Positions 888-15,859 of a stretch of DNA of 64,000 bases are shown here, one piece after another (within the stretch, counting starts at the first letter, position 1; every line of letters starts with the position of its first letter). The position numbers were made by a program, and so were the translations under genes. The DNA comes from Cellulophaga sp. 20_2_10 (GTDB taxonomy: Bacteria; Bacteroidota; Bacteroidia; Flavobacteriales; Flavobacteriaceae), in assembly GCF_023476645.1 (NCBI RefSeq), contig NZ_JAMCOJ010000009.1, positions 62,001-126,000 of the forward strand, in the 5' to 3' direction. The notes beneath the pieces were generated by a model that saw only the letters and a list, made by a program, of their open reading frames with translations, did no database searches and had not been told where the DNA came from.

Positions 888-1036
888 AGTGGTTAGTTTT
901 TAGTGCTTAGAAAATTATTTTCTAAGTATCACTTAAATATAATGAAATGCAATTTACATTCAAAAAAAATAGAGTACCATTAAACTTTTGTTAATTTGTA
1001 AAATTGAATTTTAAGAATCTTTTAAAAATATAATGC

Positions 1037-1729
1037 ATGAAAAAGTTATTATTAGCCAGTACATCTACCCTTTTTGGAGAACGCTATTTAGAATACATAT
1101 TACCAGACGTTGCTTTATTTTTTAAAGATATAGATACTGTAACTTTTATACCTTTTGCCAGACCAGGCGGCATAAGTCACGACGACTACACAGAAATTGC
1201 AACTAAAGCATTTGCTAAAATTAATAAAAAAGTAATAGGACTACACACCTACAAAAACCATAAAGATGGTATAGACCAAGCGCAAGCTTTTTTCTGTGGT
1301 GGCGGCAATACATTTGTTTTAGTACAAGAACTATACAGCCAAGATGCCATGCCGTATTTAAAAGAAAGTATTGCAAACGGCAAACCATATATGGGTACAA
1401 GTGCAGGTAGTAATATTGCTGGTATTACTATGAAAACAACTAATGACATGCCTATTGTGTATCCTCCTAGTTTTGATACTATGCACCTGGTAAACTTTAA
1501 CATTAACGCCCATTACCTAGATCCAGACCCAAATAGTAAGCACAATGGCGAAACCAGAGAAACTAGACTAAAAGAATTCCATGCATATAACACTACACCC
1601 GTAGTTGGTTTAAGAGAAGGTAGTTTTTTACTTGTAACAGCCAATACAATAGAACTTAAAGGCGAGCATACCGCACGTATTTTTGAAGCAAATAAAATAC
1701 CATACGAAAGCAAAACCATAGATTTTTAA
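1037..1729 (+). CDS. pepE: Dipeptidase E (alpha-aspartyl dipeptidase), S51 family
   Basis: 230 aa, almost the same length as E. coli PepE (229 aa). It hydrolyses dipeptides with N-terminal aspartate in the cytoplasm. The nucleophile elbow GTSAGSN places Ser122, and Asp137 (in NDMPI) and His159 (in INAHYLDPDP) have the spacing of the S51 catalytic triad. The upstream CGGGNTF and the later VVGLREGS segments are also family features. There is no signal peptide. It is transcribed divergently from the exported protein genes at the left edge and stands alone. Confidence 0.92.
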   Translation: MKKLLLASTSTLFGERYLEYILPDVALFFKDIDTVTFIPFARPGGISHDDYTEIATKAFAKINKKVIGLHTYKNHKDGIDQAQAFFCGGGNTFVLVQELYSQDAMPYLKESIANGKPYMGTSAGSNIAGITMKTTNDMPIVYPPSFDTMHLVNFNINAHYLDPDPNSKHNGETRETRLKEFHAYNTTPVVGLREGSFLLVTANTIELKGEHTARIFEANKIPYESKTIDF

Positions 1730-1811
1730 AATACGAACGTACCATAGGTGTTATTTAACGGATACCAATTACATTTTAACCACTGTTTTAGGTGAATACA
1801 TTTCTTTATTT

Positions 1812-1819
1812 TATTTTTG
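1812..1819 (+). promoter_or_regulatory. Candidate Bacteroidota -7 box for the 853-aa fibre gene
   Basis: TATTTTTG matches TAnnTTTG, 40 bases upstream of the ATG at 1860. No convincing TTG -33 element is seen at the expected spacing. Confidence 0.4.
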
Positions 1820-1859
1820 TTTGCAATGCGTAATTGCATTTTTAAAACACCCCTATCGT

Positions 1860-4421
1860 ATGAAAAAATTAGTTTTTGGATTATTTTTAAGTACCTGCCT
1901 GTTTACCAGCCTACAAGCACAAGTTAAAATTGGCGAAAATCCACAAAACCTAGACGCTAACTCAGTTTTAGAATTAGAAAGCACTACTAAAGCTTTGGTA
2001 ATTACTAGACTTAGTACGTTACAAATGGATGCAATGACTCCGTTAAACGGAGCATTAATTTACAACACAGATACCAACTGTGTACATTATTACAATGGCA
2101 CCATTTGGATTAACTTATGTGAAGCAGAAAATGCAGGCGATATCAACTTGGTAGAAAGTCCTGCCAATACGTTTACGTTTACAAATGCTGCTGGTGATGA
2201 TATTACGTTTGAGACTCCAGAATTTACAGATAACTATACGGGAACTGTTGCTGGTTTACCAAGCGGCATAAGAGTAACAGACGATGGCAATACGGTTAAT
2301 ATTGAAATAAGAAATTTTCCAGGAAGATTGATTAATGAAAATTCTATAAATGCTGATAGACTTACAGATCGTGCAGTAACTAATCTTAAATTAGGAGATG
2401 GTAGTGTATCTGAAATTAAAATACAAGATGAAGCAGTTACTACTACTAAAATACGACCAGGCACTAATAACCAGGTTTTAAAAACAGTTGGCTCCAATGT
2501 AGAATGGGGAACTTTAGATGCTGCAAGTATTGCAGGTCAAGATTTAACCGTTGATGCTACTTTAGAATTTACTGGTAGTACAACTGGCGTTGGCGCTCTT
2601 ATTGAAACTGTTGGTATTTCTGTTGCTGATGGCGGAATTACGAATGCAAAATTAGCTCCAGATGCGGTTACTTCTGATAAAATAATAAATGCAACAATAG
2701 TAAGTGATGATCTTGCTGATAACGCAGTAATTACTTCTAAAATAACAGATGCAAACGTTACTGCTAGTAAGATTGCTGCAGATGCAATAGACAATACAAA
2801 ATTAGCTGATGCCGCAGTACAAACTGAAAACATTTTAGATGGCAGAATTGCAACACTAGATATTGCAGATGATGCCGTAACTGCTGATAAAATTGGAAGC
2901 GCAGGTGCTGCAGATGCAAACAAAATTCTTGGAACCTCTGCTGCTGGAGATCCAGAATGGCAAAACGCTAGTCAAATTGCTGCTAGTCTAGGCGAAGATG
3001 TAATTTCTAGCAATGGCTCTATTTCTGGGGTTGCTGTAAATGCAGCTTTAGCTGCTATGGATTTAGAAGTAAATGTAGATGATACAACTATTGAAGTTGA
3101 CGCTACAAACGGCTTGCAAATTGTTGCAGGTTCTATTGATAACACCAAGTTAACTAACGACGCAGTAACAGGTGCTAAAATTTTAGACGCATCTATAGAA
3201 AGTAATGATATTGCTGATAAAAATATCACGCTATCAAAATTAGCCGATGGTACTACACTAGGACAATTAATGCAATGGGATGGTACAAATTGGGTTTTAG
3301 TTGATGCTGCTACCTTAACAGCAGATGGATTAATTGGTAACGAAGTTACCGGACCAACAGATGCAACGCTTCAACTAAATGGTGCTGGAACCCTAGCGGA
3401 TCCATTAACACTAGATGTTAGTACAGGCGGAATTAATACAGCAGAACTAGCTACAGATGCAGTTACTACAGATAAACTTACTGATGCAAATGTTACTAGG
3501 GATAAAATTGCTGATTTAGCAATTAACGATGCTAAACTAGACAAAACAACTATTTCTTTAACTGGTTTTGCCGTTCCAACAGCTGACTTATCTATAGGCT
3601 CACAAAAACTAACCAATGTTTTAAACCCTACTGATGCACAAGATGCAGCAACAAAGTTTTATGTAGATGCAGCAGTTACAGCAGGAACCACTGCTTTAGC
3701 CTTAAAAGAAAATAGCGCAAATAAATCTAATGACGGTACTTTAGTTGATAACTCTGTAACTGATTTCCCAACAGAACAAGCCGTAAAAACATATGTAGAT
3801 AGTAAAACTGTTAGTGGCACAACAGGTTCTATCTTTTTTGCTGATGCAACAGGCCAAGCAACAGAAAACAATAGTCAATTATTTTGGGATAACCCAAACA
3901 ATAGATTAGGAATTGGAAGAACAAACCCTCAAGACAAATTGGATGTCGAGGGACAAATTAGAGCAAGAGATGGATTCGCTGCAACTGGAGGAACAGTTGG
4001 CCAACCATCTTATGGTTTTTATACCAATGGAGATACAAATACTGGAATGTTTAGAATTGCTGAAGACCAAATTGGTTTTTCTGTTGGAGGCACACAAGCT
4101 CTCAAAATTGAAGAAGATTCAGGCGAAACAAACGTTACTGTAAACGGTGCTTTTTCAACACGAATTAAAAGTATTAATTCAGGAACAACAGCTATTCTTG
4201 AGGTTGATGAACACACCGTTATTTTATCAGGAGCTGTAACGAATGTTACTTTTCCTACATCTGCAAGTTTAGGTCAAGTATTAATTCTGAAAAACATTAC
4301 AATCACCCCATTAACAGCAAGCATAAATTTTATAAATGATATAGGAGCTTCTACTTCTAGTCTTCCTATTGGTGTAACTCAACTACAATATGACGGTGCT
4401 AACTGGCAACAAATAAACTAG
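1860..4421 (+). CDS. Secreted tail-fibre-like repeat protein, 853 aa
   Basis: Start set at ATG 1860, which gives a clean signal peptide (MKKLVFGLFL...SLQAQ); a frame extension to TTG 1821 adds an implausible leader. After the signal there is a compact N-terminal domain (residues 22-95; VKIGENP, LELEST, GALIYNTD, YNGTIW). Next comes a long run of degenerate repeats of the form DAVTTDKI / DANVTASKI (about 165-610), typical of elongated trimeric fibres, then one FPTEQAVKTYVDS unit. A cassette follows near residue 651 (GSIFFADATG, NNRLGIGRTNPQDKLDVEG, TGMFRIAEDQIGFSVGG). A terminal beta domain (about 785-853) starts HTVILSGAV and ends NWQQIN. There is no S74 chaperone and no T9SS sorting domain. 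The next gene starts one base after the stop. Probably a surface fibre or adhesin; this is inference. Confidence 0.8.
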   Translation: MKKLVFGLFLSTCLFTSLQAQVKIGENPQNLDANSVLELESTTKALVITRLSTLQMDAMTPLNGALIYNTDTNCVHYYNGTIWINLCEAENAGDINLVESPANTFTFTNAAGDDITFETPEFTDNYTGTVAGLPSGIRVTDDGNTVNIEIRNFPGRLINENSINADRLTDRAVTNLKLGDGSVSEIKIQDEAVTTTKIRPGTNNQVLKTVGSNVEWGTLDAASIAGQDLTVDATLEFTGSTTGVGALIETVGISVADGGITNAKLAPDAVTSDKIINATIVSDDLADNAVITSKITDANVTASKIAADAIDNTKLADAAVQTENILDGRIATLDIADDAVTADKIGSAGAADANKILGTSAAGDPEWQNASQIAASLGEDVISSNGSISGVAVNAALAAMDLEVNVDDTTIEVDATNGLQIVAGSIDNTKLTNDAVTGAKILDASIESNDIADKNITLSKLADGTTLGQLMQWDGTNWVLVDAATLTADGLIGNEVTGPTDATLQLNGAGTLADPLTLDVSTGGINTAELATDAVTTDKLTDANVTRDKIADLAINDAKLDKTTISLTGFAVPTADLSIGSQKLTNVLNPTDAQDAATKFYVDAAVTAGTTALALKENSANKSNDGTLVDNSVTDFPTEQAVKTYVDSKTVSGTTGSIFFADATGQATENNSQLFWDNPNNRLGIGRTNPQDKLDVEGQIRARDGFAATGGTVGQPSYGFYTNGDTNTGMFRIAEDQIGFSVGGTQALKIEEDSGETNVTVNGAFSTRIKSINSGTTAILEVDEHTVILSGAVTNVTFPTSASLGQVLILKNITITPLTASINFINDIGASTSSLPIGVTQLQYDGANWQQIN

Positions 4422-4422
4422 T

Positions 4423-5580
4423 ATGAAAAACTTACTTTACATATTATTATGTTGTAGTTCTGTTGCCGTAGCACAAAATGCTATGTACAACAACGGTAGC
4501 ATACGCATACACGATACGGGTACACTTGGGTTGCACACCAACCTTATTAACGATGCTACGTTTGACCAAAATTTGGGAACAGCAGGGTTTTACGGTCAGG
4601 TTACCACAAGTGTTACTGGTGCTTTTATTCCTGTTTTTTACGATGTAGAAATTTTCAAACCTTTTAGTTCTGCTATTTTAGAGACTTCTATTACAGTAAC
4701 TAATGCTTTAAATTTAGTAGATGGCGACTTTGTTACCTACCGTAATAATCCATTAGAAAACATTAAACTACTGCCAAATGCTTTTACGGTTGGCGAGTCT
4801 AACTTGTCTAAAGTAGATGGCTATATGTTGGTAGAACAAAAACAAAATTTCTTTTTTACCGTAGGTGATTCTGGCTATATAAGACCTTTAACATTGCAAT
4901 CTGAAACTGTAAACGCAACAGCTAAGTGTGCTTATTTTTATGAAGATCCTAATCTTCCTTCGACCTTTGCTACCAGTTTTAACACCAATAGCAAACAAAA
5001 AGAAGTAAGAGATGTTAGCACCACAGAATTTTGGGATATCGATAGTAGTTTACCCTCTACTGTTAGTATTTCTTGGAACGACCGCAGCAACATTGCTAAC
5101 CTAGTAGACGAGTACTACCAAGTTGGTATTGCAGGTTGGCACAGAATACAAAAAAGATGGGTTAATTTAGGCAGTGTAGACCCAATTGGTGATCTTAACC
5201 AAGGTGCAGTAACCTCTGAAACTTTTGTGCCTAACGATTACGAAGTGATTACATTGGCTAAAATGGCAATTCCAACAGAATTGTTAGATCTAGAAAACTA
5301 CTATGTAAGTAATAATGGCGATGGTGTAAACGACTTTCTTGTGATTCCAGAATTAGAGCTATCTCCAAATAATCGCATTCGCATTTTTGATAGAAACGGA
5401 CTTAAAGTATTTGAAAAAGACAATTATAACAGTGAGTTTAATGGCTATTCTAACATAAACAATAACGTATATAAACGAAACGAAGGTTTACCAAGTGGTG
5501 TTTATTTTTACCTTGCTTTCCTAGATGATCTACAACTAGAGTATCAAGGCTTTTTATATCTAACTGGTACTGGTAATTAG
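4423..5580 (+). CDS. Secreted protein with T9SS type B sorting (gliding-motility-associated C-terminal) domain
   Basis: 385 aa with a signal peptide ending AVAQ. Residues 20-285 form a domain shared almost block for block with the protein at 13473-14627: FDQNLGTAGFYG, KVDGYMLVEQK, TVGDSGYIRPL, AKCAYFYEDPNLPSTF, EFWDID, VTSETFVPNDYEVIT. From about residue 292 there is a type B sorting domain (YYVSNNGDGVNDFL, IRIFDRNGLKVFE, LPSGVYFYLAF, YQGFLYL), the family that directs export through the T9SS and surface attachment or release. The gene starts one base after the fibre gene, so coupling is likely. The conserved central domain has no function I recognise. Confidence 0.88.
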   Translation: MKNLLYILLCCSSVAVAQNAMYNNGSIRIHDTGTLGLHTNLINDATFDQNLGTAGFYGQVTTSVTGAFIPVFYDVEIFKPFSSAILETSITVTNALNLVDGDFVTYRNNPLENIKLLPNAFTVGESNLSKVDGYMLVEQKQNFFFTVGDSGYIRPLTLQSETVNATAKCAYFYEDPNLPSTFATSFNTNSKQKEVRDVSTTEFWDIDSSLPSTVSISWNDRSNIANLVDEYYQVGIAGWHRIQKRWVNLGSVDPIGDLNQGAVTSETFVPNDYEVITLAKMAIPTELLDLENYYVSNNGDGVNDFLVIPELELSPNNRIRIFDRNGLKVFEKDNYNSEFNGYSNINNNVYKRNEGLPSGVYFYLAFLDDLQLEYQGFLYLTGTGN

Positions 5581-5935
5581 TAAGATACAGATTAACAAAT
5601 TATTATTTTTTTATATAAAAGCAGACCATATGGTCTGCTTTTTTTATATCTAAACACCTATAAAACAAAGAATAAAACAGCACAAACTTAATCCTTTAAA
5701 AATACTGTAAGAATTTACTTTTATTTAAATGCGTAAATTCAAAATTTATTTTTTGTATTTTTATGATAGGACCAATCCAAAACCAACTCAAAACAAACGT
5801 TCTACAGACTTCTTTAAGCACTAATCAAGCCCATAAATTAGTCGTCTCACATACAATAAACTATGTTTTACAACATAATATTTAAGTACGCTTATTAATT
5901 CATTAATTTACAATTGCTAACCTAGATATAAACAA
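5581..5935. other. Gene-free stretch upstream of the giant repeat gene
   Basis: Holds the terminator at 5617-5645 and then about 290 AT-rich bases that must contain the promoter and leader of the 6.4-kb gene. A 40-codon open frame (5763-5885) looks like chance. No clear -33/-7 pair or structured RNA was recognised. Confidence 0.5.
5617..5645 (+). terminator. Rho-independent terminator
   Basis: A perfect 18-base palindrome (GCAGACCATATGGTCTGC, 5621-5638) is flanked by AAAA and a run of T. It ends the 1860-5580 operon and could work in both directions. Confidence 0.75.
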
Positions 5936-8900
5936 ATGAAAATCAACAAATTAGTAGTAATCCTTTTTTTTGCCATTGCTCAACACTCTTTTGGGCAAGT
6001 AAAAATAGGTAATGATATAAACACCATAGATTCTGCTTCTATTTTAGAACTGGAGAGTACGGATAAGGTGTTAATTTTAACCCGAGTTACAAATACTCAA
6101 ATGGCTGCTATTACCCCCCTTTCTGGCGCTATGGTTTACAATACGGATGAAGGTTGTATATTTCAATACAATGGTATTTTATGGCAATCACTGTGTGACA
6201 CAAGTTCTTTTAATGAAACAAATACCATTATTTTTGATAATAATGATGGTACGTTTTCTTATACAAACGAGAATAATATTACTGTTGCCATTACAAAAGC
6301 ACAATTATCAGCTAACGGAGATGGGACATTTAGTTTTACAAACGGAAACGGGACTCCTGTAAATTTTGATGGTACAGACAACCAGGTACTAAGTACCGAT
6401 GGAACTTCTGGTAACCTAACATTAGAAAATGGAGGTACTCTAGTTTTAAATGTTGCTGATGCTGATGCTGATGACACAAACGAACTAAATACTGGCTTTA
6501 CATTAAACGGTACAGCTTTAGAAATTACCGATGCTGGTGGCACAATAGCACAAGATTTAAACGGAACTTTTGCTACAGATGCAGAAGTTGGCGTTGTTGC
6601 TAGCGCAAGTGCAGCAGCGATACAAGCAGTTCAAGACAATGTAGATATAAATGAAGCCGATGCAGACGCAGCAATTACAGCGGAAACTACAAGAGCTACT
6701 GCTGCAGAAAATGCTATTCAGGCTGATGTTGATGCGAATGAAACAGCAGCAACTAATGCTATTAATGCAGTTCAGACTGATGTTGACACTAACGAAGCTG
6801 ATGCTGATGCTGCAATTGCTGCGGCAAACACGGCAATCGCTTTAAAAGAAGATGCTGCTAATAAATCAACTAACGTTGCTTTAGGAACTTCAGATGTTGA
6901 CTTCCCTACTCAAAACGCAGTTAAAACATATGTAGATGCACAAGTTGCTGGATCTACACAAGTAATTGTAAGCACTGATGCGAATAACGATGTGACTGCT
7001 GGTGCTGATGGTGGTGCTTTTTATGATGATGCTGCCTTACAAACTAGTATTGCTAACAATACAACTGCAATTACAACGGAAACTACAAGAGCTACTGCTG
7101 CAGAAAATGCTATTCAAGCTGATGTTGATGCCAATGAAACAGCAGCAACTAATGCAATAAATGCAGTTCAGACTGATGTTGATACTAACGAAGCTGATGC
7201 AGATGCTGCAATTGCCTTAAAAGAAGATGCTGCTAACAAATCGACTAACGTTGCTTTAGGAACTTCAGATGTTGACTTCCCTACTCAAAACGCAGTAAAA
7301 ACATATGTAGACGCACAAGTGGCTGGATCTACACAAGTAATTGTAAGTACTGATGCGGATAACAATGTGACTGCTGGTGCCGATGGTGGTGCTTTTTATG
7401 ACGATGCAACACTACAAACAAACATTGCAAACAATACAACAAATATTACGTCTAACGATACTGATATCGCTAATAATACAACTGCAATTACAGCAGAAAC
7501 TACAAGAGCTACTGCTGCAGAAAATGCTATTCAGGCTGATGTTGATGCGAATGAAACAGCAGCAACTAATGCAATAAATGCAGTTCAGACTGATGTTGAT
7601 ACCAACGAAGCTGATGCAGATGCGGCAATTGCTCTAAAAGAAGATGCTGCTAACAAATCGACTAACGTTGCTTTAGGAACTTCAGATGTTGACTTCCCAA
7701 CACAAAATGCAGTAAAGACCTATGTAGATGCACAAGTTGCTGGATCTACACAAGTAATTGTAAGTACTGATGCGGATAACGATGTGACTGCTGGTGCCGA
7801 TGGTGGTGCTTTTTATGATGATGCAACACTACAAACAAACATTGCGAAAAATACAACAAACATTACGTCTAACGATACTGATATCGCAAACAATACAACT
7901 GCAATTACAGCAGAAACTACAAGAGCTACTGCTGCAGAAAATGCTATTCAGGCTGATGTTGATGCGAATGAAACAGCAGCAACTAATGCAATAAATGCAG
8001 TTCAGACTGATGTTGATACTAACGAAGCTGATGCCGATGCTGCAATCGCTCTAAAAGAAGATGCTGCTAATAAGTCAACTAACGTTGCTTTAGGAACTTC
8101 GGATGTTGATTTCCCAACACAAAATGCAGTAAAAACATATGTAGATGCACAAGTGGCTGGATCTACACAAGTAATTGTAAGTACTGATGCCAACAACGAT
8201 GTGACTGCTGGTGCCGATGGTGGTGCTTTTTATGATGATGCTGCACTACAAACAAACATTGCGTCTAACGATACTGATATCGCAAACAATACAACTGCTA
8301 TTACAGCTGAAACTACAAGAGCTACTGCTGCAGAAAATGCTATTCAAGCTGATGTAGATGCGAATGAAACAGCAGCAACTAATGCAATAAATGCAGTTCA
8401 GACTGATGTTGATACTAACGAAGCTGATGCTGATGCGGCAATCGCTCTAAAAGAAGATGCTGCTAATAAGTCAACTAACGTTGCGCTTGGAACTTCAGAT
8501 GTTGATTTCCCAACACAAAACGCAGTAAAAACATATGTAGATGCACAAGTTCTTGCTTCTGATCAAGTAATTGTAAGTACTGATGCGGATAACGATGTAA
8601 CGGCTGGTGCCGATGGCGGTGCTTTTTATGATGATGCAACACTACAAACTAACATTGCCAACAATACAACTGCTATTACAGCGGAAACTACAAGAGCTAC
8701 TGCTGCAGAAAATGCTATTCAAGCTGATGTTGATACTAACGAAGCTGATGCAGATGGTGCAATTGCCTTAAAAGAAGATGCTGCTAATAAATCAACTAAC
8801 GTTGCTTTAGGAACTTCAGATGTTGACTTCCCAACTCAGAATGCTGTTAAAACTTATGTAGACGCACAAGCAGATGGTACTATAACCTCAACAGATATTG

Positions 8901-11900
8901 ATGTTACAGGCGGCTCTAATGCTGCATTTGAAAATGTAAGTCTTAGTATTGCGGACAATGCAATAACCACGAGCAAGATTGCCAATGACAATGTTACATT
9001 AGATAAATTGGCTAACGGAACTAGTAATGGCCAAATAATGAGATGGGATGGAACTAACTGGATTCTTAGTAATGAAACAATAACAAAACTAGAAAGTCCG
9101 GCTGCAGCTCAAAATACATTAGTATACACAGATGAAGCAAACGGAGTTACAACTTTACCTAACATTGTTAGAAGTGTTAATGGTGTTAACCCTCAAGCAA
9201 ATGGAAATGTTGCTGTAATTTTGTCAAGTGTATCAACGGGAATGGAATCTGCTAGGCCAGCAACTGGTGTAGATTCTGATATTTATATTGTATCTGGCGA
9301 AGTTGCTCCTAATACCGATAGAAATGGTGTTGCTTTTATTTATGATGATCCAACTGGTTGGCAAGAAGTAACAACAGATTTATCTACAAATGATGCTCGT
9401 TATGTAAATATTATTGGTGATGCTATGACTGGTCCATTAACAATGGGAGGTAACGCTGTTACTTCAATAGCAAACCCTGTAAATGCTCAAGATGCAACTC
9501 CTAAAAGTTATGTAGATGCACAAATTATTGCTTCTACACAAGTTATTGTAAGTACTGATGCAAATAACGATGTTACGACTGGTGCTGATGGTGGTGCTTT
9601 TTATGATGATGCAACACTACAAACTAACATTGCCAACAATACAACAAATATCACTTCTAACGATACTGATATCGCCAATAACGTAACTGCTATCGCTTTA
9701 AAAGAAGATGCTGCTAACAAATCGACTAACGTTGCTTTAGGAACTTCAGATGTTGACTTCCCTACTCAAAACGCAGTTAAAACATATGTTGATGCGCAAG
9801 TAGCTGGATCTACACAAGTAATCGTAAGTACTGATGCGGATAACGATGTGACTGCTGGTGCCGATGGTGGTGCTTTTTATGATGATGCAACACTACAAAC
9901 AAACATTGCTAACAATACAACTGCTATTACAGCGGAAACTACAAGAGCTACTGCTGCAGAAAATGCTATTCAGGCTGATGTTGATGCGAATGAAACAGCA
10001 GCAACTAATGCAATAAATGCAGTTCAGACTGATGTTGACACTAACGAAGCTGATGCTGATGCGGCAATTGCTGCGGCAAATACTGCTATCGCTCTAAAAG
10101 AAGATGCCGCTAACAAATCAACTAACGTTTCTTTAGGAACTTCAGATGTTGACTTCCCTACTCAGAATGCAGTAAAGACCTATGTAGATGCACAAGTGGC
10201 TGGATCTACACAAGTAATTGTAAGTACTGATGCCAACAACGATGTTACGACTGGTGCTGATGGTGGTGCTTTTTATGATGATGCTGCATTACAGACAAAC
10301 ATTGCCAACAATACAACAAATATCACTTCTAACGATACTGATATCGCCAATAACGTAACTGCTATCGCTTTAAAAGAAGATGCTGCTAACAAATCAACTA
10401 ACGTTGCTTTAGGAACTTCAGATGTTGACTTCCCTACTCAAAATGCAGTAAAAACCTATGTAGATGCACAAGTGGCTGGATCTACACAAGTAATTGTAAG
10501 CACTGATGCGGATAACGATGTGACTGCTGGTGCCGATGGTGGTGCTTTTTATGATGATGCAACACTACAAACAAACATTGCCAACAATACTACTGCTATT
10601 ACAGCGGAAACTACAAGAGCTACTGCTGCAGAAAATGCTATTCAAGCTGATGTTGACGCGAATGAAACAGCAGCAACTAATGCAATAAATGCAGTTCAGA
10701 CTGATGTTGACACTAACGAAGCTGATGCTGATGCTGCAATTGCTGCGGCAAACACGGCAATCGCTCTAAAAGAAGATGCTGCTAACAAATCGACTAACGT
10801 TGCTTTAGGAACTTCAGATGTTGACTTCCCTACTCAAAACGCAGTAAAAACATACGTAGACGCACAAGTTCTTGCTTCTGATCAAGTAATTGTAAGTACT
10901 GATGCGAATAACGATGTGACTGCTGGTGCTGATGGTGGTGCTTTTTATGATGATGCAACACTACAAACAAACATTGCCAACAATACAACTGCAATTACAG
11001 CAGAAACTACAAGAGCTACTGCTGCAGAAAATGCTATTCAAGCTGATGTTGATGCAAATGAAACAGCAGCAACTAATGCTATTAATGCAGTTCAGACTGA
11101 TGTTGACACTAACGAAGCTGATGCAGATGCGGCAATTGCTTTAAAAGAAGATGCTGCTAATAAGTCAACTAACGTTGCCTTAGGAACTTCGGATGTTAAC
11201 TTCCCAACTCAGAATGCTGTTAAAACTTATGTAGACGCGCAAGTGGCTGGATCTACACAAGTAATTGTAAGTACTGATACGGATAACGATGTGACTGCTG
11301 GTGCCGATGGCGGTGCTTTTTATGATGATGCAACACTACAAACTAACATTACCAACAATACAACTGCAATTACAGCAGAAACTGCAAGAGCTACTGCTGC
11401 AGAAAATGCTATTCAGGCTGATGTTGATGCGAATGAAACAGCAGCAAACACTGCTATCGCTTTAAAAGAAGATGCTGCTAATAAGTCAACTAACGTTGCC
11501 TTAGGAACTTCAGATGTTGACTTCCCTACTCAGAACGCAGTAAAAACCTATGTAGATGCACAAAAAATTTCTGGAACCTCAGGTTCATTATTCTTTGCCG
11601 GAGCAACAGGAGCAGCAACTGAAGACAATTCTCAATTATTTTGGGACATCACAAACAATAGGCTAGGTGTTGGAACAGATATGCCCGAAAACAAATTACA
11701 AGTTTCAGGAGCAATTAGAAGTGCTGGTCTATTAAATTCTGACGGAACCGTTGGTGAACCTGCATACCGTTTTAGTGATGATACAAATACAGGTATCTTT
11801 AGTCCTGCAGCAGATGAAATAGGCCTGACAGTAGGTGGTATTGAAGCTATCAATATTGATGAAACATCTGGAAACACGACAGTTACAATTAATGAAACTT

Positions 11901-12313
11901 TAGATTTAGATGGTCAAGTTTTAGATGAAAATGATTCTTCTGGAAACGCAGGTCAAGTTTTAACAGCAACTGCAACAGGTACTGAGTGGGTAAACAACAG
12001 TAGTCCTATTAAGGCTTTTGGGAAAATCTCATCAACTGGGGCTTTAACTAGAGTTTCTACTGGTGTAACTGTGATAAAACAATCAGGTGTTGGTCATTAT
12101 AGAGTAGTCCTTACAGGTATAGTTTCTGATGGAAATTATATTATTCAGTTAAGTCAGCCTGGAAGAGGTGGTGTTGGCAATGATGATCCAGGAATCTCGT
12201 ATAGCAATCAGACCGCAACTGGATTTGATGTTATTATGGGAGATAATGATAACGGAGGAACAGACAGAGCAAGATTTGACTCAGAATTTATGTTTGTAAT
12301 ACTTGATTTATAA
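5936..12313 (+). CDS. Giant secreted modular tail-fibre-like repeat protein, 2125 aa
   Basis: A signal peptide (ending SFGQ) and the same N-terminal domain as the 853-aa protein (VKIGNDIN, LELESTDKVL, GAMVYNTDEGC, YNGILW) come first. They are followed by twelve copies of a module beginning ALKEDAANKSTNV and containing FPTQNAVKTYVDAQ and GAFYDDATLQTNIANN. These alternate with helical linker modules (AITAETTRATAAENAIQADVD, NINAVQTDVDTNEADADAA) that look like trimeric coiled coil. A unique insert (about residues 981-1198) has phage-tail-fibre motifs (VRSVNGVNPQANGNVAV, MTGPLTMGG). The C-terminus has the NNRLGVGTDMPENKLQVSG cassette (from about 1878) and a different terminal beta domain (from about 2022). 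It is very rich in Ala, Asp, Thr and Asn and has almost no cysteine. No catalytic or T9SS sorting motif is seen. Probable long surface fibre. Confidence 0.8.
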   Translation: MKINKLVVILFFAIAQHSFGQVKIGNDINTIDSASILELESTDKVLILTRVTNTQMAAITPLSGAMVYNTDEGCIFQYNGILWQSLCDTSSFNETNTIIFDNNDGTFSYTNENNITVAITKAQLSANGDGTFSFTNGNGTPVNFDGTDNQVLSTDGTSGNLTLENGGTLVLNVADADADDTNELNTGFTLNGTALEITDAGGTIAQDLNGTFATDAEVGVVASASAAAIQAVQDNVDINEADADAAITAETTRATAAENAIQADVDANETAATNAINAVQTDVDTNEADADAAIAAANTAIALKEDAANKSTNVALGTSDVDFPTQNAVKTYVDAQVAGSTQVIVSTDANNDVTAGADGGAFYDDAALQTSIANNTTAITTETTRATAAENAIQADVDANETAATNAINAVQTDVDTNEADADAAIALKEDAANKSTNVALGTSDVDFPTQNAVKTYVDAQVAGSTQVIVSTDADNNVTAGADGGAFYDDATLQTNIANNTTNITSNDTDIANNTTAITAETTRATAAENAIQADVDANETAATNAINAVQTDVDTNEADADAAIALKEDAANKSTNVALGTSDVDFPTQNAVKTYVDAQVAGSTQVIVSTDADNDVTAGADGGAFYDDATLQTNIAKNTTNITSNDTDIANNTTAITAETTRATAAENAIQADVDANETAATNAINAVQTDVDTNEADADAAIALKEDAANKSTNVALGTSDVDFPTQNAVKTYVDAQVAGSTQVIVSTDANNDVTAGADGGAFYDDAALQTNIASNDTDIANNTTAITAETTRATAAENAIQADVDANETAATNAINAVQTDVDTNEADADAAIALKEDAANKSTNVALGTSDVDFPTQNAVKTYVDAQVLASDQVIVSTDADNDVTAGADGGAFYDDATLQTNIANNTTAITAETTRATAAENAIQADVDTNEADADGAIALKEDAANKSTNVALGTSDVDFPTQNAVKTYVDAQADGTITSTDIDVTGGSNAAFENVSLSIADNAITTSKIANDNVTLDKLANGTSNGQIMRWDGTNWILSNETITKLESPAAAQNTLVYTDEANGVTTLPNIVRSVNGVNPQANGNVAVILSSVSTGMESARPATGVDSDIYIVSGEVAPNTDRNGVAFIYDDPTGWQEVTTDLSTNDARYVNIIGDAMTGPLTMGGNAVTSIANPVNAQDATPKSYVDAQIIASTQVIVSTDANNDVTTGADGGAFYDDATLQTNIANNTTNITSNDTDIANNVTAIALKEDAANKSTNVALGTSDVDFPTQNAVKTYVDAQVAGSTQVIVSTDADNDVTAGADGGAFYDDATLQTNIANNTTAITAETTRATAAENAIQADVDANETAATNAINAVQTDVDTNEADADAAIAAANTAIALKEDAANKSTNVSLGTSDVDFPTQNAVKTYVDAQVAGSTQVIVSTDANNDVTTGADGGAFYDDAALQTNIANNTTNITSNDTDIANNVTAIALKEDAANKSTNVALGTSDVDFPTQNAVKTYVDAQVAGSTQVIVSTDADNDVTAGADGGAFYDDATLQTNIANNTTAITAETTRATAAENAIQADVDANETAATNAINAVQTDVDTNEADADAAIAAANTAIALKEDAANKSTNVALGTSDVDFPTQNAVKTYVDAQVLASDQVIVSTDANNDVTAGADGGAFYDDATLQTNIANNTTAITAETTRATAAENAIQADVDANETAATNAINAVQTDVDTNEADADAAIALKEDAANKSTNVALGTSDVNFPTQNAVKTYVDAQVAGSTQVIVSTDTDNDVTAGADGGAFYDDATLQTNITNNTTAITAETARATAAENAIQADVDANETAANTAIALKEDAANKSTNVALGTSDVDFPTQNAVKTYVDAQKISGTSGSLFFAGATGAATEDNSQLFWDITNNRLGVGTDMPENKLQVSGAIRSAGLLNSDGTVGEPAYRFSDDTNTGIFSPAADEIGLTVGGIEAINIDETSGNTTVTINETLDLDGQVLDENDSSGNAGQVLTATATGTEWVNNSSPIKAFGKISSTGALTRVSTGVTVIKQSGVGHYRVVLTGIVSDGNYIIQLSQPGRGGVGNDDPGISYSNQTATGFDVIMGDNDNGGTDRARFDSEFMFVILDL
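6839..8880 (+). repeat. In-frame modular coding repeats, block 1 (six units)
   Basis: Units start at the GCT or GCC codon of ALKEDAANK at 6839, 7214, 7631, 8048, 8444 and 8765. Spacings are 375, 417, 417, 396 and 321 bases, all multiples of three. Units are near-identical in DNA but differ by gain or loss of whole sub-modules, such as the ITSNDTDIANN and IAAANTA blocks. Confidence 0.9.
9530..11560 (+). repeat. In-frame modular coding repeats, block 2 (six units)
   Basis: Units start at 9695, 10091, 10367, 10763, 11138 and 11459, with spacings 396, 276, 396, 375 and 321 bases. Several spacings equal those in block 1 (396, 375, 321), so segments may have been copied between blocks. The blocks are separated by the unique insert at about 8876-9530. 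Confidence 0.9.
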
Positions 12314-12549
12314 GAGAGCATCAACCTATAATATTAAAATAAACTTTAACCCTTAAAACAATCAATTTATAAAAAAAAACAAAAATCGAGTTACTTTTTA
12401 GTTCCCCAAGTAATTCATCAAATTAAACAAACATCTATATACTTTGTTGGTAACCAAACACAACAACCAATACCAACAACTAATATGCTAATATCTAACC
12501 AATAAAAGCATATTAAAAAATAAGTATATAGTACCAAACCAATAATTTA

Positions 12550-13470
12550 ATGAAGATGAAAAAACAAATTTTACCACTTATGCTTTTAGTTCCTGTACTA
12601 AATTGCTTCGCCCAAATTGATGCAAATTTATTGTTAGGATTAACCTCCGGTACAACAGCAGAGATTAATGCAATAGCCGGACCTTTAGAAGGTTCTATTT
12701 TGTACAATACCACAGAAAAAAGAATGTATTTATACAACGCAAGTATCTGGGAGAAAATTCCTGATATCACAGATTTATTACCTCCTACATTTACTGATGG
12801 TTCAATATTGTTCGCAAGCTCTTCTGGAGCACCAGATGAAGATAACGGACAATTATTTTGGGACAGCACCAATAACAGGCTTGGTGTTGGCACAAACACA
12901 CCTGACAACAAAATGCAAGTAACCGGTGCAATTAGAAGCGCAGGTCTATTAAATAGTAACGGAAATGCAGGAGAACCAGCATATAGATTTACAGATGATA
13001 CCGATACAGGTATGTACTCAAAAAATGACAATGAACTTAGTTTTACCCTTGGTAGTCATGAAGCATTAAGATTAGATAGGTACACTACAACACAAACACA
13101 AGTATTAATAAGCGAACGTTTAGGTATTGGTTTTGATTTGCCTGAAAATTTGGCTTACACAGGAGTTGACGCCCACTCAACTTTAGAGGTTAAAGGTTCT
13201 GTTGCCACTGCAATAGATGTTACTACAGGAGACTTAACATTAGACGATACGCACCACACTATAATTTTAGGGGGAGCTCATAATATAACATTACCCGATG
13301 CATCTACTTGTAAAGGAAGAATATATGTAATAAAAAATCCAAATACTTTAATTTTAACTGCTACAATTAGCACTTATAAGAGTTTGATAGGTGTTAATAT
13401 AAGCGCTATAGCAAGTTTAAAAACAATTTGGGTACAAAGTGATGGAACCAATTGGCAACAAATACAATAA
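12550..13470 (+). CDS. Short secreted tail-fibre-like protein, 306 aa
   Basis: Start at ATG 12550 (a second ATG at 12556 is equally possible), with a signal peptide ending CFAQ. It is a reduced version of the large fibres: an N-terminal element (GSILYNTTEKRMYLYNASIW), no long repeat region, then the cassette GSILFASSSGAPDEDNGQLF, NNRLGVGTNTPDNKMQVTG, DTGMYSKNDNELSFTLG. Its terminal beta domain (HTIILGGAHNITLPDAS ... GTNWQQIQ) matches the 853-aa protein rather than the 2125-aa neighbour. The stop is followed two bases later by the start of the second type B-sorted protein. Function unknown; likely a fibre base or adaptor subunit. Confidence 0.78.
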   Translation: MKMKKQILPLMLLVPVLNCFAQIDANLLLGLTSGTTAEINAIAGPLEGSILYNTTEKRMYLYNASIWEKIPDITDLLPPTFTDGSILFASSSGAPDEDNGQLFWDSTNNRLGVGTNTPDNKMQVTGAIRSAGLLNSNGNAGEPAYRFTDDTDTGMYSKNDNELSFTLGSHEALRLDRYTTTQTQVLISERLGIGFDLPENLAYTGVDAHSTLEVKGSVATAIDVTTGDLTLDDTHHTIILGGAHNITLPDASTCKGRIYVIKNPNTLILTATISTYKSLIGVNISAIASLKTIWVQSDGTNWQQIQ

Positions 13471-13472
13471 CA

Positions 13473-14627
13473 ATGAAAAAAATAATATTCTATATCTTTT
13501 TATGTCTCTCTAGTATTGGTTTATCTCAGAACGTGATACAAAATACAGGCAATCTAAAAATTTTCAATAATGGCCAAATCGGTTTTCATATTGATTTGGC
13601 TAACGATGGTAATTTTGACCAAAACGAAGGTTTAGCTGGTTTTTATAGCGATGACACTAGAACAATTTCTGGTGCTTTTAAGCCCATTTTTAATGATATG
13701 GAAGTTGTTGTAACCAACGACTTATTTTTAGATATAGCGGTAGGAATTACAAACAATAGTAATTTTATTTTGGGTGATGTAGTTACTCCTAGAAGTGCTA
13801 TTGATATAAACTTAGATTTTATACAAAATGCTTTTTATAACGGAGATAGCAACCTTACCAAAGTAGATGGCTATGCGTCTATTGCAAATAAAAAAAGTTT
13901 TACTTTTCCTGTAGGAGATGCAGATAAAATTAGACCCTTATTATTAGATTCTGAAACGATTAATAACACAGCTAAAAGTGCCTATTTTTTTGAAGATCCA
14001 AATACGCCATCAACCTTTACAAATACATTTAACACAGATGCCAAAGCTGATATTTTAACCGCCGTAAGCACCTATGAATTTTGGGATTTAGATGCCAATA
14101 TCCCATCTAAAGTTACCCTAACTTGGGATCAAGATAGTAGTATTGAAAATTTTGTAAACGTTATTGAAGACATACGTATAGTGGGATGGAATAAAGCCTT
14201 AAACATTTGGGAGAATTTAGGTAATGCAGCAATGGCTGGCAACTTTAATTCGGGCTCTGTAACGTCTGACACTTTTGTTCCTGATGATTATGAGATTATT
14301 ACTTTTGGAACCAGCTTAACTGCTTTAAGCGCTAATTTTGATAATTATTTTGTTTCTCCAAATGGGGATGGCATAAACGATTTTCTTCATTTTGAATCTA
14401 TTTCTTTAGCTCCAGATAATAATAATTTAAAAATCTACAACAGATGGGGAAGGATTGTTTACGATAAAGAAGGATACGACAATACTTTTGGTGGTATAGC
14501 AAACGTAAAGGGAGTTGTTACAAAGGGAAATGCTTTACCAGACGGAGTCTATTTTTATATATTAAACCTAAGAGACATCAACATAAAACATCAAGGGTAT
14601 ATTTATTTAGGATATCAAAATCAATAA
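13473..14627 (+). CDS. Secreted protein with T9SS type B sorting domain (paralogue of 4423-5580)
   Basis: Start set at ATG 13473, two bases after the upstream stop; this gives a signal peptide (MKKIIFYIFLCLSSIGLSQ), whereas extension to TTG 13452 does not. 384 aa. Residues 20-285 align through the whole length with the protein at 4423-5580 (FDQNEGLAGFYSDD, NLTKVDGYASI, PVGDADKIRPL, AYFFEDPNTPSTF, STYEFWDLDANIPS, FVPDDYEIIT). The type B sorting domain starts near residue 287 (YFVSPNGDGINDFLHFE, LKIYNRWGRIVYD, LPDGVYFYILNLRD, HQGYIYLG). This second pairing of a fibre gene with the same partner supports a functional link. Confidence 0.88.
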   Translation: MKKIIFYIFLCLSSIGLSQNVIQNTGNLKIFNNGQIGFHIDLANDGNFDQNEGLAGFYSDDTRTISGAFKPIFNDMEVVVTNDLFLDIAVGITNNSNFILGDVVTPRSAIDINLDFIQNAFYNGDSNLTKVDGYASIANKKSFTFPVGDADKIRPLLLDSETINNTAKSAYFFEDPNTPSTFTNTFNTDAKADILTAVSTYEFWDLDANIPSKVTLTWDQDSSIENFVNVIEDIRIVGWNKALNIWENLGNAAMAGNFNSGSVTSDTFVPDDYEIITFGTSLTALSANFDNYFVSPNGDGINDFLHFESISLAPDNNNLKIYNRWGRIVYDKEGYDNTFGGIANVKGVVTKGNALPDGVYFYILNLRDINIKHQGYIYLGYQNQ

Positions 14628-14631
14628 TATG

Positions 14632-14639
14632 TATTTTTG
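14632..14639 (+). promoter_or_regulatory. Candidate -7 box for the GNAT gene
   Basis: TATTTTTG (TAnnTTTG) lies 18 bases upstream of ATG 14658, just after the stop of the previous gene. Confidence 0.4.
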
Positions 14640-14657
14640 TTACATAGCATCGATTTT

Positions 14658-15113
14658 ATGATAACCCAAAACAACCTTGTTTTTAAACTGATTTCACCCA
14701 AAGAAACGTACCCAGTGAGACACGCTATTCTAAGAGCTGGAAAACCTTTGTCTTCTTGTAAGTTTGATGGAGATGACCTAAAGACTACTTTGCATATTGG
14801 TGCGTACCAAAATGGTAATTTAGTGGGAGTTGCAACTTTACTAGAAGCAAAAAATAGTGCTATTTTAGATGTTAATGCCTATCAACTAAGAGGTATGGCT
14901 ATACATCAAGATCAGCAAGGAAAAGGCTTGGGGAAAAAAATTATTAATTACGCTGAAACAATTTTACAGGAAAAGCACGTTTTACTATTGTGGATGAATG
15001 CTAGAGAAAGTGCAATTCCCTTTTACACAAATTGTGGATACACAAAAAGTGGTCGCATATTTGATATAGAAAAGGTAGGACCACATGTAGTTATGTTTAA
15101 AAAGTTAAAATAA
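14658..15113 (+). CDS. GNAT family N-acetyltransferase
   Basis: 151 aa from ATG 14658; an upstream TTG at 14637 in frame overlaps the candidate -7 box and is rejected. The acetyl-CoA binding motif A is visible as YQLRGMAIHQDQQGKGLGKK (V/I-x-x-x-x-Q-x-x-G-x-G), followed by the helix and the LLLWMNARESAIPFYTNCGY strand-helix that closes the fold. The substrate cannot be told from sequence. Cytoplasmic. It stands between the fibre cluster and two peptidase genes; the next gene starts 5 bases downstream. Confidence 0.85.
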   Translation: MITQNNLVFKLISPKETYPVRHAILRAGKPLSSCKFDGDDLKTTLHIGAYQNGNLVGVATLLEAKNSAILDVNAYQLRGMAIHQDQQGKGLGKKIINYAETILQEKHVLLLWMNARESAIPFYTNCGYTKSGRIFDIEKVGPHVVMFKKLK

Positions 15114-15118
15114 GAGTT

Positions 15119-15859
15119 ATGCAAAGAAGATCATTTATTCTAAAAAGCGGAATTATAGGTGCTGCCGCATTAACCGCGCCACATCTAATTTTTGCCCAAG
15201 ATGAAGAAACAGAATATTCTGTATACGAATTAATGGGGCAAGCAGATATAGAATTATTTGGCAAAGGCATAAACCTTAGAAAAGAAGCTTACGAATCTTT
15301 TAAAAAAATGAAAGTAGCGGCTTACAGTGCAGGTATAGATTTAAAAATTGTATCTAGCTACAGAAACTTTAACAGACAAGAAGGTATTTGGGAACGCAAG
15401 TATTTAAAATATACAGACAACCAAAACCTTAAACCACTAGATGCCATAGAAAAAATAATAGAATACTCTACAATACCAGGCACAAGTAGACACCATTGGG
15501 GTACAGATATAGATATTATAGATGGTTACCAAAAAACAAATGGAGATGTTTTGGTGCCTAGTAAATTTGAAGAAGGTGGCCCTTTCAAAGAATTAAAAAA
15601 ATGGATGGATGAAAATGCTAATGACTTCGGTTTTCATTTAGTTTACACCAATGATAAAAAACGCAGAGGTTTTAAATACGAGCCTTGGCACTATAGCTAC
15701 GCTCCTATTTCTAAGCCTATGTTAGAACAATTTAGAGGTAAAAACATCATGCGATTAATACAAGAACAAGAGCTTTTAGGTAGCGAACATTTTACCGCTG
15801 GCTTTTTAAGATCTTATATTGTAAATAACATTTTGGACATTAATCCAGATCTTTTATAA
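15119..15859 (+). CDS. M15 family D-alanyl-D-alanine carboxypeptidase (VanY-like)
   Basis: 246 aa. The N-terminus MQRRSFILKSGIIGAAALTA is a signal peptide with a twin arginine that could use Tat. Zinc ligands of the M15 family are visible: SRHHWGTDIDI gives His125 and Asp132, and EPWH gives His191 with the catalytic Glu188. The SYR motif in VSSYRNFNRQ also fits. The likely role is trimming the terminal D-Ala of peptidoglycan stem peptides in the periplasm. It is five bases after the GNAT gene and upstream of an M48 peptidase. Confidence 0.87.
   Translation: MQRRSFILKSGIIGAAALTAPHLIFAQDEETEYSVYELMGQADIELFGKGINLRKEAYESFKKMKVAAYSAGIDLKIVSSYRNFNRQEGIWERKYLKYTDNQNLKPLDAIEKIIEYSTIPGTSRHHWGTDIDIIDGYQKTNGDVLVPSKFEEGGPFKELKKWMDENANDFGFHLVYTNDKKRRGFKYEPWHYSYAPISKPMLEQFRGKNIMRLIQEQELLGSEHFTAGFLRSYIVNNILDINPDLL

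Follow-up and report, generated by a model that had tools for sequence, protein, structure and literature searches.

Substrates of the type IX secretion system (T9SS) are described as bearing their own C-terminal signal (PMC12618676), and two described systems are among those closest to the genes considered here. In the SprB–SprF system of Flavobacterium johnsoniae (PMC9143113, PMC12618676, PMC12635249), the surface adhesin SprB carries its own sorting domain and is served by the PorP-like carrier SprF, and in the PorE–PorP–PG1035 system of Porphyromonas gingivalis (PMC9143113) a type B protein is anchored by PorP; what we say of these papers is drawn from extracts of them. Here we analyse a stretch of 64,000 nucleotides from Cellulophaga sp. 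20_2_10 (contig NZ_JAMCOJ010000009.1, positions 62,001 to 126,000), which as a whole is called the window below. In it, two tail-fibre-like genes, F1 and F3, are each followed directly by a gene for a small T9SS type B protein, P1 and P2 respectively, and a further fibre gene, F2, lies between the two pairs.

The likeness to SprB–SprF lies in a surface adhesin system with a type B sorting domain and, presumably also here, a PorP/SprF carrier. SprB, however, has the sorting domain itself, whereas here it sits on a separate protein of about 380 residues and the fibre has no recognised one, and SprF is the carrier of SprB, whereas neither P1 nor P2 has a carrier gene next door. The F. johnsoniae operons of a type B substrate, PorP and PorE (PMC12618676) can be likened to 12 of 14 loci of distant partner homologues, where a PorP-like gene lies downstream, and P1 and P2 resemble, as compared by description, the orphan type B class of F. 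johnsoniae that shares the carrier Fjoh_1677 (PMC12618676). In the extracts of that paper the type B protein is itself the putative adhesin, no upstream fibre is mentioned and the word 'tail' is absent; nor do those of PMC9143113 report a fibre partner for PG1035, which we liken by description, not by sequence. With phage tail fibres, tailspikes and collagen-like adhesins, the fibres share a constant base, a repeat or collagen shaft and an exchangeable tip, but unlike phage tail fibres they are made by the cell, carry signal peptides and are paired with a T9SS protein. No description of a fibre lacking a sorting domain and paired with a type B protein was found in the open-access literature, a scope that leaves subscription journals and preprints mostly outside, and we regard the pairing as a novel variation on T9SS surface display. 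A tandem-gene paper on Flavobacterium collinsii (PMC9950754), considered as a precedent, deals in its available parts with other genes.

We put the probability at roughly 60% that fibre and partner form one two-part surface structure, in which the partner would escort and/or anchor a trimeric fibre via the T9SS. We arrive at this reading because the sorting domain is on the partner only, the gaps between the genes are in the coupling range, fibre and partner co-occur almost perfectly at strong scores, and one family of partners goes with varied fibre tips. The function is most likely adhesion with exchangeable tips.

Partner proteins and fibres

The two partners are homologous and both end in a type B sorting domain, as the initial annotation of the window had proposed: 169 of 380 residues are identical (44%; expectation value (E) 2e-116), and the CHU_C family PF13585 scores 78 bits in P1 and 85.5 bits in P2 against a cut-off of 27. 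TIGR04131 falls slightly under its cut-off of 35 (28.9 and 33.8, respectively). CHU_C was found in all 75 partners of a wider alignment (A4), from which one partner with a type A-like end (L196) had been excluded beforehand. Sec-type signal peptides were read by eye in P1 and P2, and the predicted structure of P1, which is confident (predicted local distance difference test (pLDDT) 93.7), has a helix at residues 2-12. A Foldseek search with this model gave no PDB match at E 0.001; its C-terminal domain alone resembles the T9SS sorting domain 8glk_D (probability 0.99, E 0.45), and in sequence the partner sorting domain is similar to that of GhpA of Aureispira (9flp). On these sequence grounds P1 and P2 are classed as T9SS type B proteins.

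The three fibres are related to one another in two places, the N-terminus and a head region close to the C-terminus. Their starts read by eye as Sec signal peptides, which are followed by an N-module of 50-70 residues (about 55) with a pattern like GxLxYNTxxxxxYxYxGxxW (alignment A3). A sorting domain had not been recognised in the fibres initially, and family searches agree: neither F1 nor F3 is matched by a Pfam or NCBIfam family at E 0.1, so that neither has a recognised sorting domain, the matches of F2 in these libraries are all far under cut-off and include no T9SS sorting family, and at E 0.001 the T9SS sorting families of both libraries matched none of 52 fibres drawn from 110 complete partner-linked fibres of other loci. 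The Collagen family matched 7 of the same 52.

The label 'tail-fibre-like' likewise holds. F1 matches the PHROGs tail fibre families 892 and 28766 (E 1.3e-24 and 8.1e-23), and the F3 model, which is weak overall (mean pLDDT 62.4; about 82-87 at residues 31-70 and 79-94 at residues 222-306, in blocks of ten), matches in Foldseek two phage structures, the tailspike 24qj (E 4.3e-6) and the capsid spike 9ny6 (E 2.3e-4), both with low template modelling scores (0.27 by query length). These matches to phage tail and virion models and to a tailspike fold, together with a weak match to a structural protein of Cellulophaga phage Nekkels_1, would also fit a phage remnant or tailocin, with the fibres as its prophage tail genes and the partner beside them by chance. 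We consider this very improbable: the fibres start with signal peptides (by eye), P1 has no match among 50,697 phage records, and the genes on either side, which have the look of housekeeping genes (PepE and GNAT by family search; peptidases, gpmI and map by eye), are met again in other genera. This check of the neighbours covered eight window proteins against general family libraries and four against PHROGs. A scan of viral contigs gave six matches in the sorting-domain region only, the domain from which the search pattern had been derived.

Residues 5-70 of F3 (12562-12759) show 38% identity to a structural protein of the Cellulophaga phages Nekkels_1 and Nekkels_2 (E 5e-3). The N-module may be common to phage virions and cell-surface fibres; its likeness to DUF2793 and Collagen_trimer is weak (best E 0.016 and 0.017) and serves as a lead only.

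Among the 154 fibres that adjoin strong partners, 152 were long enough for a comparison of their 110 C-terminal residues, which fall into 15 single-linkage clusters at E 1e-4 (sizes 38, 38, 25, 16, 14, 5, 4, 4 and 2, and six singletons), whereas 161 partners form a single cluster at E 1e-10. Base and partner are therefore constant while tip and shaft vary, as in phage tail fibres. Collagen-like runs occur in 28 of the 154 fibres, and the 116 fibres whose full length is contained in the fetched stretches measure 212 to 2024 residues (median 909). The shaft of F2 contains, among others, tandem repeats of 396-417 bp with about 88-92% matches.

Adjacency and co-occurrence in relatives

A search with the partner core (A1) matched 119 of 397 genomes of the family at E 0.001, 93 of these at E 1e-40 or better, and in an order-level draw, which overlaps with that of the family, 33 of 395 genomes matched at E 0.001, 32 of them from the same family. 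Within it, partner genomes seem concentrated in one part. We collected 206 non-identical partner cores, and the neighbours of the 190 that scored at least 130 bits were counted. The immediate upstream open reading frame (ORF) is an N-module fibre in 116 of these 190 partners, and in a further 24 such a fibre lies on the same strand within 8 kb, not immediately upstream. Another 39 were not assessable, with the upstream ORF cut by a contig end (38) or no upstream ORF at all (1), 1 more was masked, and 10 stand in other contexts. With start codons chosen by rule, the 116 direct gaps (median 8) fall within 20 bp in 78 cases and do not exceed 100 bp in 108. That the partner is dedicated to the fibre, as first suggested, is well supported by these counts together with the co-occurrence and the type B control described below; the contrary outcome named in the initial annotation, homologues mostly without a fibre gene upstream, is not what the 190 partners show.

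Four of the 10 other contexts are Aquimarina-type loci (L034, L051, L054 and L056), and the three of them that were re-examined (L034, L051 and L056) have fibre-like fragments at the contig start. Four more (L175, L188, L190 and L192) carry short secreted-looking proteins with a divergent N-terminus, L093 has another kind of secreted-looking protein and just 1.5 kb of flank, and the clearest exception, L137, has an upstream gene without a signal peptide. In 12 Aquimarina loci a different long protein, ending in approximately ITNRRITYRV, lies directly upstream of the partner; an N-module fibre is found upstream of that protein in 9 of the 12, and another after the partner in 6 of the 12. These ITNRRITYRV proteins (L034-L056) are long and secreted-looking, a second surface-type kind adjoining the partner.

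Across the same 397 family genomes, the N-module model (A3) has a best match at E 1e-17 or better in 96. At strong scores, 93 genomes have both parts, none has the partner alone and 3 have the fibre alone (G037, G082 and G305); in these three the fibre runs off the contig beside window-like neighbours (BamP-like genes in all three, pepE in one), and the next gene is invisible because the contig end cuts the fibre. A weak-scoring genome (G343, locus L221) has a divergent partner directly behind the fibre, in the synteny of the window. Among the 22 partners of 15 near-closed partner genomes, 21 are accompanied on their own strand by a strong N-module no more than 14 kb away, and the 22nd (G373) most likely belongs to a fibre frame of 5385 codons whose N-module lies 16 kb upstream. 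The CHU_C matches of these 15 genomes served as the type B control: 150 of 213 were listed, 21 partners and 129 non-partners, and, by the same criterion of strand and distance, no strong N-module accompanies any of the 129 non-partners among the matches listed, while 7 have a weaker one. In the window's own genome the A3 matches at E 0.01 are F1, F2 and F3 only, and at least seven other type B proteins were seen (including a SprB-like one in L242), each with a PorP/SprF-like gene directly downstream. One of the seven, a 672-residue type B protein of another kind in locus L240 (C57 of this genome), stands between a collagen-like ORF cut by the contig end and PorP, an arrangement similar in logic but made of unrelated parts.

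A broader model (A5), in which distant members are included, gave matches at E 0.001 in 90 of the 375 genomes sampled from the phylum, many of the matches being core-like domains in long proteins. In 14 loci of distant homologues from the family (L225-L228, L255-L261, L263, L266 and L267; 12 of them from one genus, taken as Flavobacterium), an N-module fibre identified by model lies within two genes upstream in 10, L225 and L258 have a fibre-like N-terminus by eye, and L259 and L260 are cut. A PorP-like gene, named by eye, stands directly downstream in 12 of the 14 (L225-L228, L255-L260, L263 and L267) and is followed by a PorE-like gene, also named by eye, in 11 of those 12. Outside the family, 29 loci were chosen among better-scoring or shorter core matches, and an N-module fibre is a same-strand neighbour in six of them, from four other families (L251, L252, L253, L254, L271 and L272; core proteins of 379-794 residues). 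One of these, L253 (same class, another family), is a tandem array in which short N-module fibres alternate with core proteins.

The form of the pair varies. The end of the core protein reads as a type A-like signal in L251 and L252; at the same genomic place as in the window, L247 (genome G143) has a partner with a type A-like end that comes before the fibre; and in L254 and L274 the core protein likewise precedes the fibre. The type A-like end and the position ahead of the fibre are noted for L196 of genome G143 as well as for L247. The pairing itself is kept when gene order or sorting type changes. The arrangement initially annotated, a type B partner downstream of a fibre, extends well beyond this locus, but neither the sorting type nor the order is fixed.

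Several observations weigh against a two-part structure of fibre and partner. For part of the 24 near cases, the closest fibre may be that of a second pair in the locus, and in the window F2 sits two genes upstream of P2, with F3 in between, and has no partner directly behind it. No fused fibre-partner gene occurs among 234 partner ORFs. The other 23 of the 29 outside-family loci hold core-like domains in T9SS-type proteins without a same-strand fibre neighbour; most of these proteins are longer than 700 residues or cut by a contig end, the short exceptions being L265 (361 residues, with an opposite-strand fibre two genes away) and L275 (240 residues). Some N-module match at E 0.001 exists in 229 of the 397 family genomes, with lower scores common where there is no strong partner; and the matches in L212-L219 are short fibres with no partner among the matches listed, so that the module does not depend on this partner. 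Of the 28 strong N-modules in the 15 near-closed genomes, 25 have a partner within 14 kb and the remaining 3, two from G396 and one from G236, lack one. The thresholds were chosen once the lists had been viewed, A3 was built from partner-linked fibres, and the genomes are relatives of one another, all three of which favour the correlation. A test of pair specificity on 16 two-pair loci was discarded: of its 120 comparisons 107 were in agreement and 13 in disagreement, yet in 117 the partner is assigned in line with gene order, so that the test shows block inheritance, not contact.

Inheritance of the pairs as a block would also be expected of two independent adhesins made from one transcript without touching each other, and the core-like domains without a fibre neighbour elsewhere in the phylum point the same way; the contact between fibre and partner is something that we infer. 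Co-regulation by itself is nonetheless improbable in our judgement, given that the fibre is present in every one of the 93 strong-partner genomes, that the pair is retained despite changed order or sorting type, and that such fibres stand near none of the 129 other type B proteins among the matches listed.

Proposed export and anchoring, and candidate carriers

The second half of the initial interpretation, that fibre and partner are exported or anchored together, is one that we infer from sequence. In the two-part structure favoured here, both proteins would enter the periplasm by Sec, where the fibre, to judge from its likeness to other fibres, would trimerise with the N-module at its base. 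The core domain of the partner would bind this base, the T9SS translocon (SprA) and a PorP/SprF-type carrier would recognise the C-terminal domain of the partner, and the fibre would cross the outer membrane with the partner and/or be held on the surface by it. The carrier would also anchor the complex of fibre and partner, with the N-module at the cell and the variable tip pointing outward; in loci of the Flavobacterium type, the putative PorP-like carrier and PorE-like protein would be encoded next door. A Cys-X-Cys tail is reported to connect SprF with the track protein GldK (PMC12635249), and fibres may be pulled along the gliding track where the carrier has such a tail.

The partner could act as an anchor only, with the fibre crossing the outer membrane by a route of its own, through an unrecognised signal or another exporter, and being captured outside by the T9SS-exported partner. 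Anchoring of type B proteins by carriers of the SprF type is known (PMC9143113), and the N-module fibres without an adjoining partner gene in other genomes suggest that some partner-free route may exist. We nevertheless regard this explanation as unlikely, since T9SS and autotransporter families match none of the 52 scanned fibres, a scan in which lipoprotein signals lay outside the systematic test.

The escort reading can be widened into a proposal that we advance tentatively, at somewhat less than even odds: a phylum-wide T9SS export in trans, in which multimeric fibres without a signal would cross the outer membrane bound to a dedicated small adaptor that supplies it, with adaptor and base constant and the tip exchangeable. 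Export in trans, if true, would be of a new kind. Inventories of T9SS surface proteins based on sorting domains would then lack a large class of adhesins, it could be tested directly whether assembled complexes pass through the SprA channel, and small orphan type B proteins would gain a role.

The window's own genome contains SprA and PorP genes, and no carrier gene stands beside P1 or P2, which are followed by F2 and a GNAT gene, respectively. An unlinked PorP-like gene, full-length and of ordinary size (L244:6668-7690, in the own genome C23:404667-405689), has no type B gene as a neighbour and is a candidate for the carrier of P1 and P2, although the indications are only suggestive. Its protein ends in ...DCKCPAVNY and SprF of the same genome in ...NCRCTY, both with Cys-X-Cys tails, and six other linked PorP-like proteins that were seen end in PRFF. 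Three further PorP matches in this genome comprise frames of 717 and 678 codons and one weak match. The unlinked PorP-like protein was rejected as a partner-specific carrier: its best match is at E 1.1e-65 or better in 76 of 80 family genomes, with or without a partner, and it is therefore a general gene of the family and a candidate carrier only. The identity of that match is mostly 62-72% in partner genomes and 48-55% in others, with exceptions in both groups, among them G059, G168, G294 and G077.

Layout and surroundings of the locus

The five genes F1, P1, F2, F3 and P2 lie in this order on the + strand, between pepE (1037-1729) and a GNAT gene (14637-15113; Table 1). The coordinates and spacing given in the initial annotation for both pairs proved correct: 1 base separates the TAG stop of F1 from the ATG of P1, and 2 bases separate the TAA stop of F3 from the ATG of P2. 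The arrangement does occur twice, as was also reported then, but the homologous fibre F2 and the hairpin behind P1 had been overlooked.

Table 1. Positions of the fibre and partner genes and associated features in the window
Feature	Position	Strand	Description
Fibre F1	1860..4421	+	853 residues; signal peptide by eye; N-module ~1950-2120; repeats; C-terminal SDGxxWxxI-type domain
Partner P1	4423..5580	+	385 residues; signal peptide by eye; beta-rich core ~residues 19-285
P1 type B (CHU_C) sorting domain	residues 290-380 (5290-5562)	+	
Terminator-like hairpin with T run behind P1	5617..5642	+	consensus match
Fibre F2	5936..12313	+	2125 residues; N-module ~6023-6196; tandem-repeat shaft; C-terminus differs
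Fibre F3	12550..13470	+	306 residues; N-module ~12607-12762; C-terminal beta domain residues 222-306
Partner P2	13473..14627	+	384 residues; core and type B (CHU_C) sorting domain, residues 290-379 (14340-14609)

The stem of this hairpin (11 pairs) is the longest of 16 such sites in 900-15200 (shuffle mean 8.5), and F1 and P1 may be a single unit because a hairpin with a T run stands behind P1. An alternative start of F1, a TTG at 1821, is in open frame; the ATG at 1860 is the better start because what reads as a standard signal peptide begins there. A promoter motif, TAnnTTTG (Bacteroidota type), is present at 1812-1819 before F1 and was left unused, the window holding 109 copies in total against 112 by chance.

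The host genome belongs to the Flavobacteriaceae and is close to Cellulophaga; the P1 core is 94% identical to that of a Cellulophaga fucicola locus and 92% identical to that of a C. omnivescoria locus. The surroundings of the locus are conserved (window 1-20117; L034-L056, L221 and L247), with BamP-like and pepE genes on one side and GNAT, peptidases, an ankyrin-like gene, gpmI and map, several of them named by eye, on the other. Set between these flanks, the fibre locus resembles a hot spot for surface genes.

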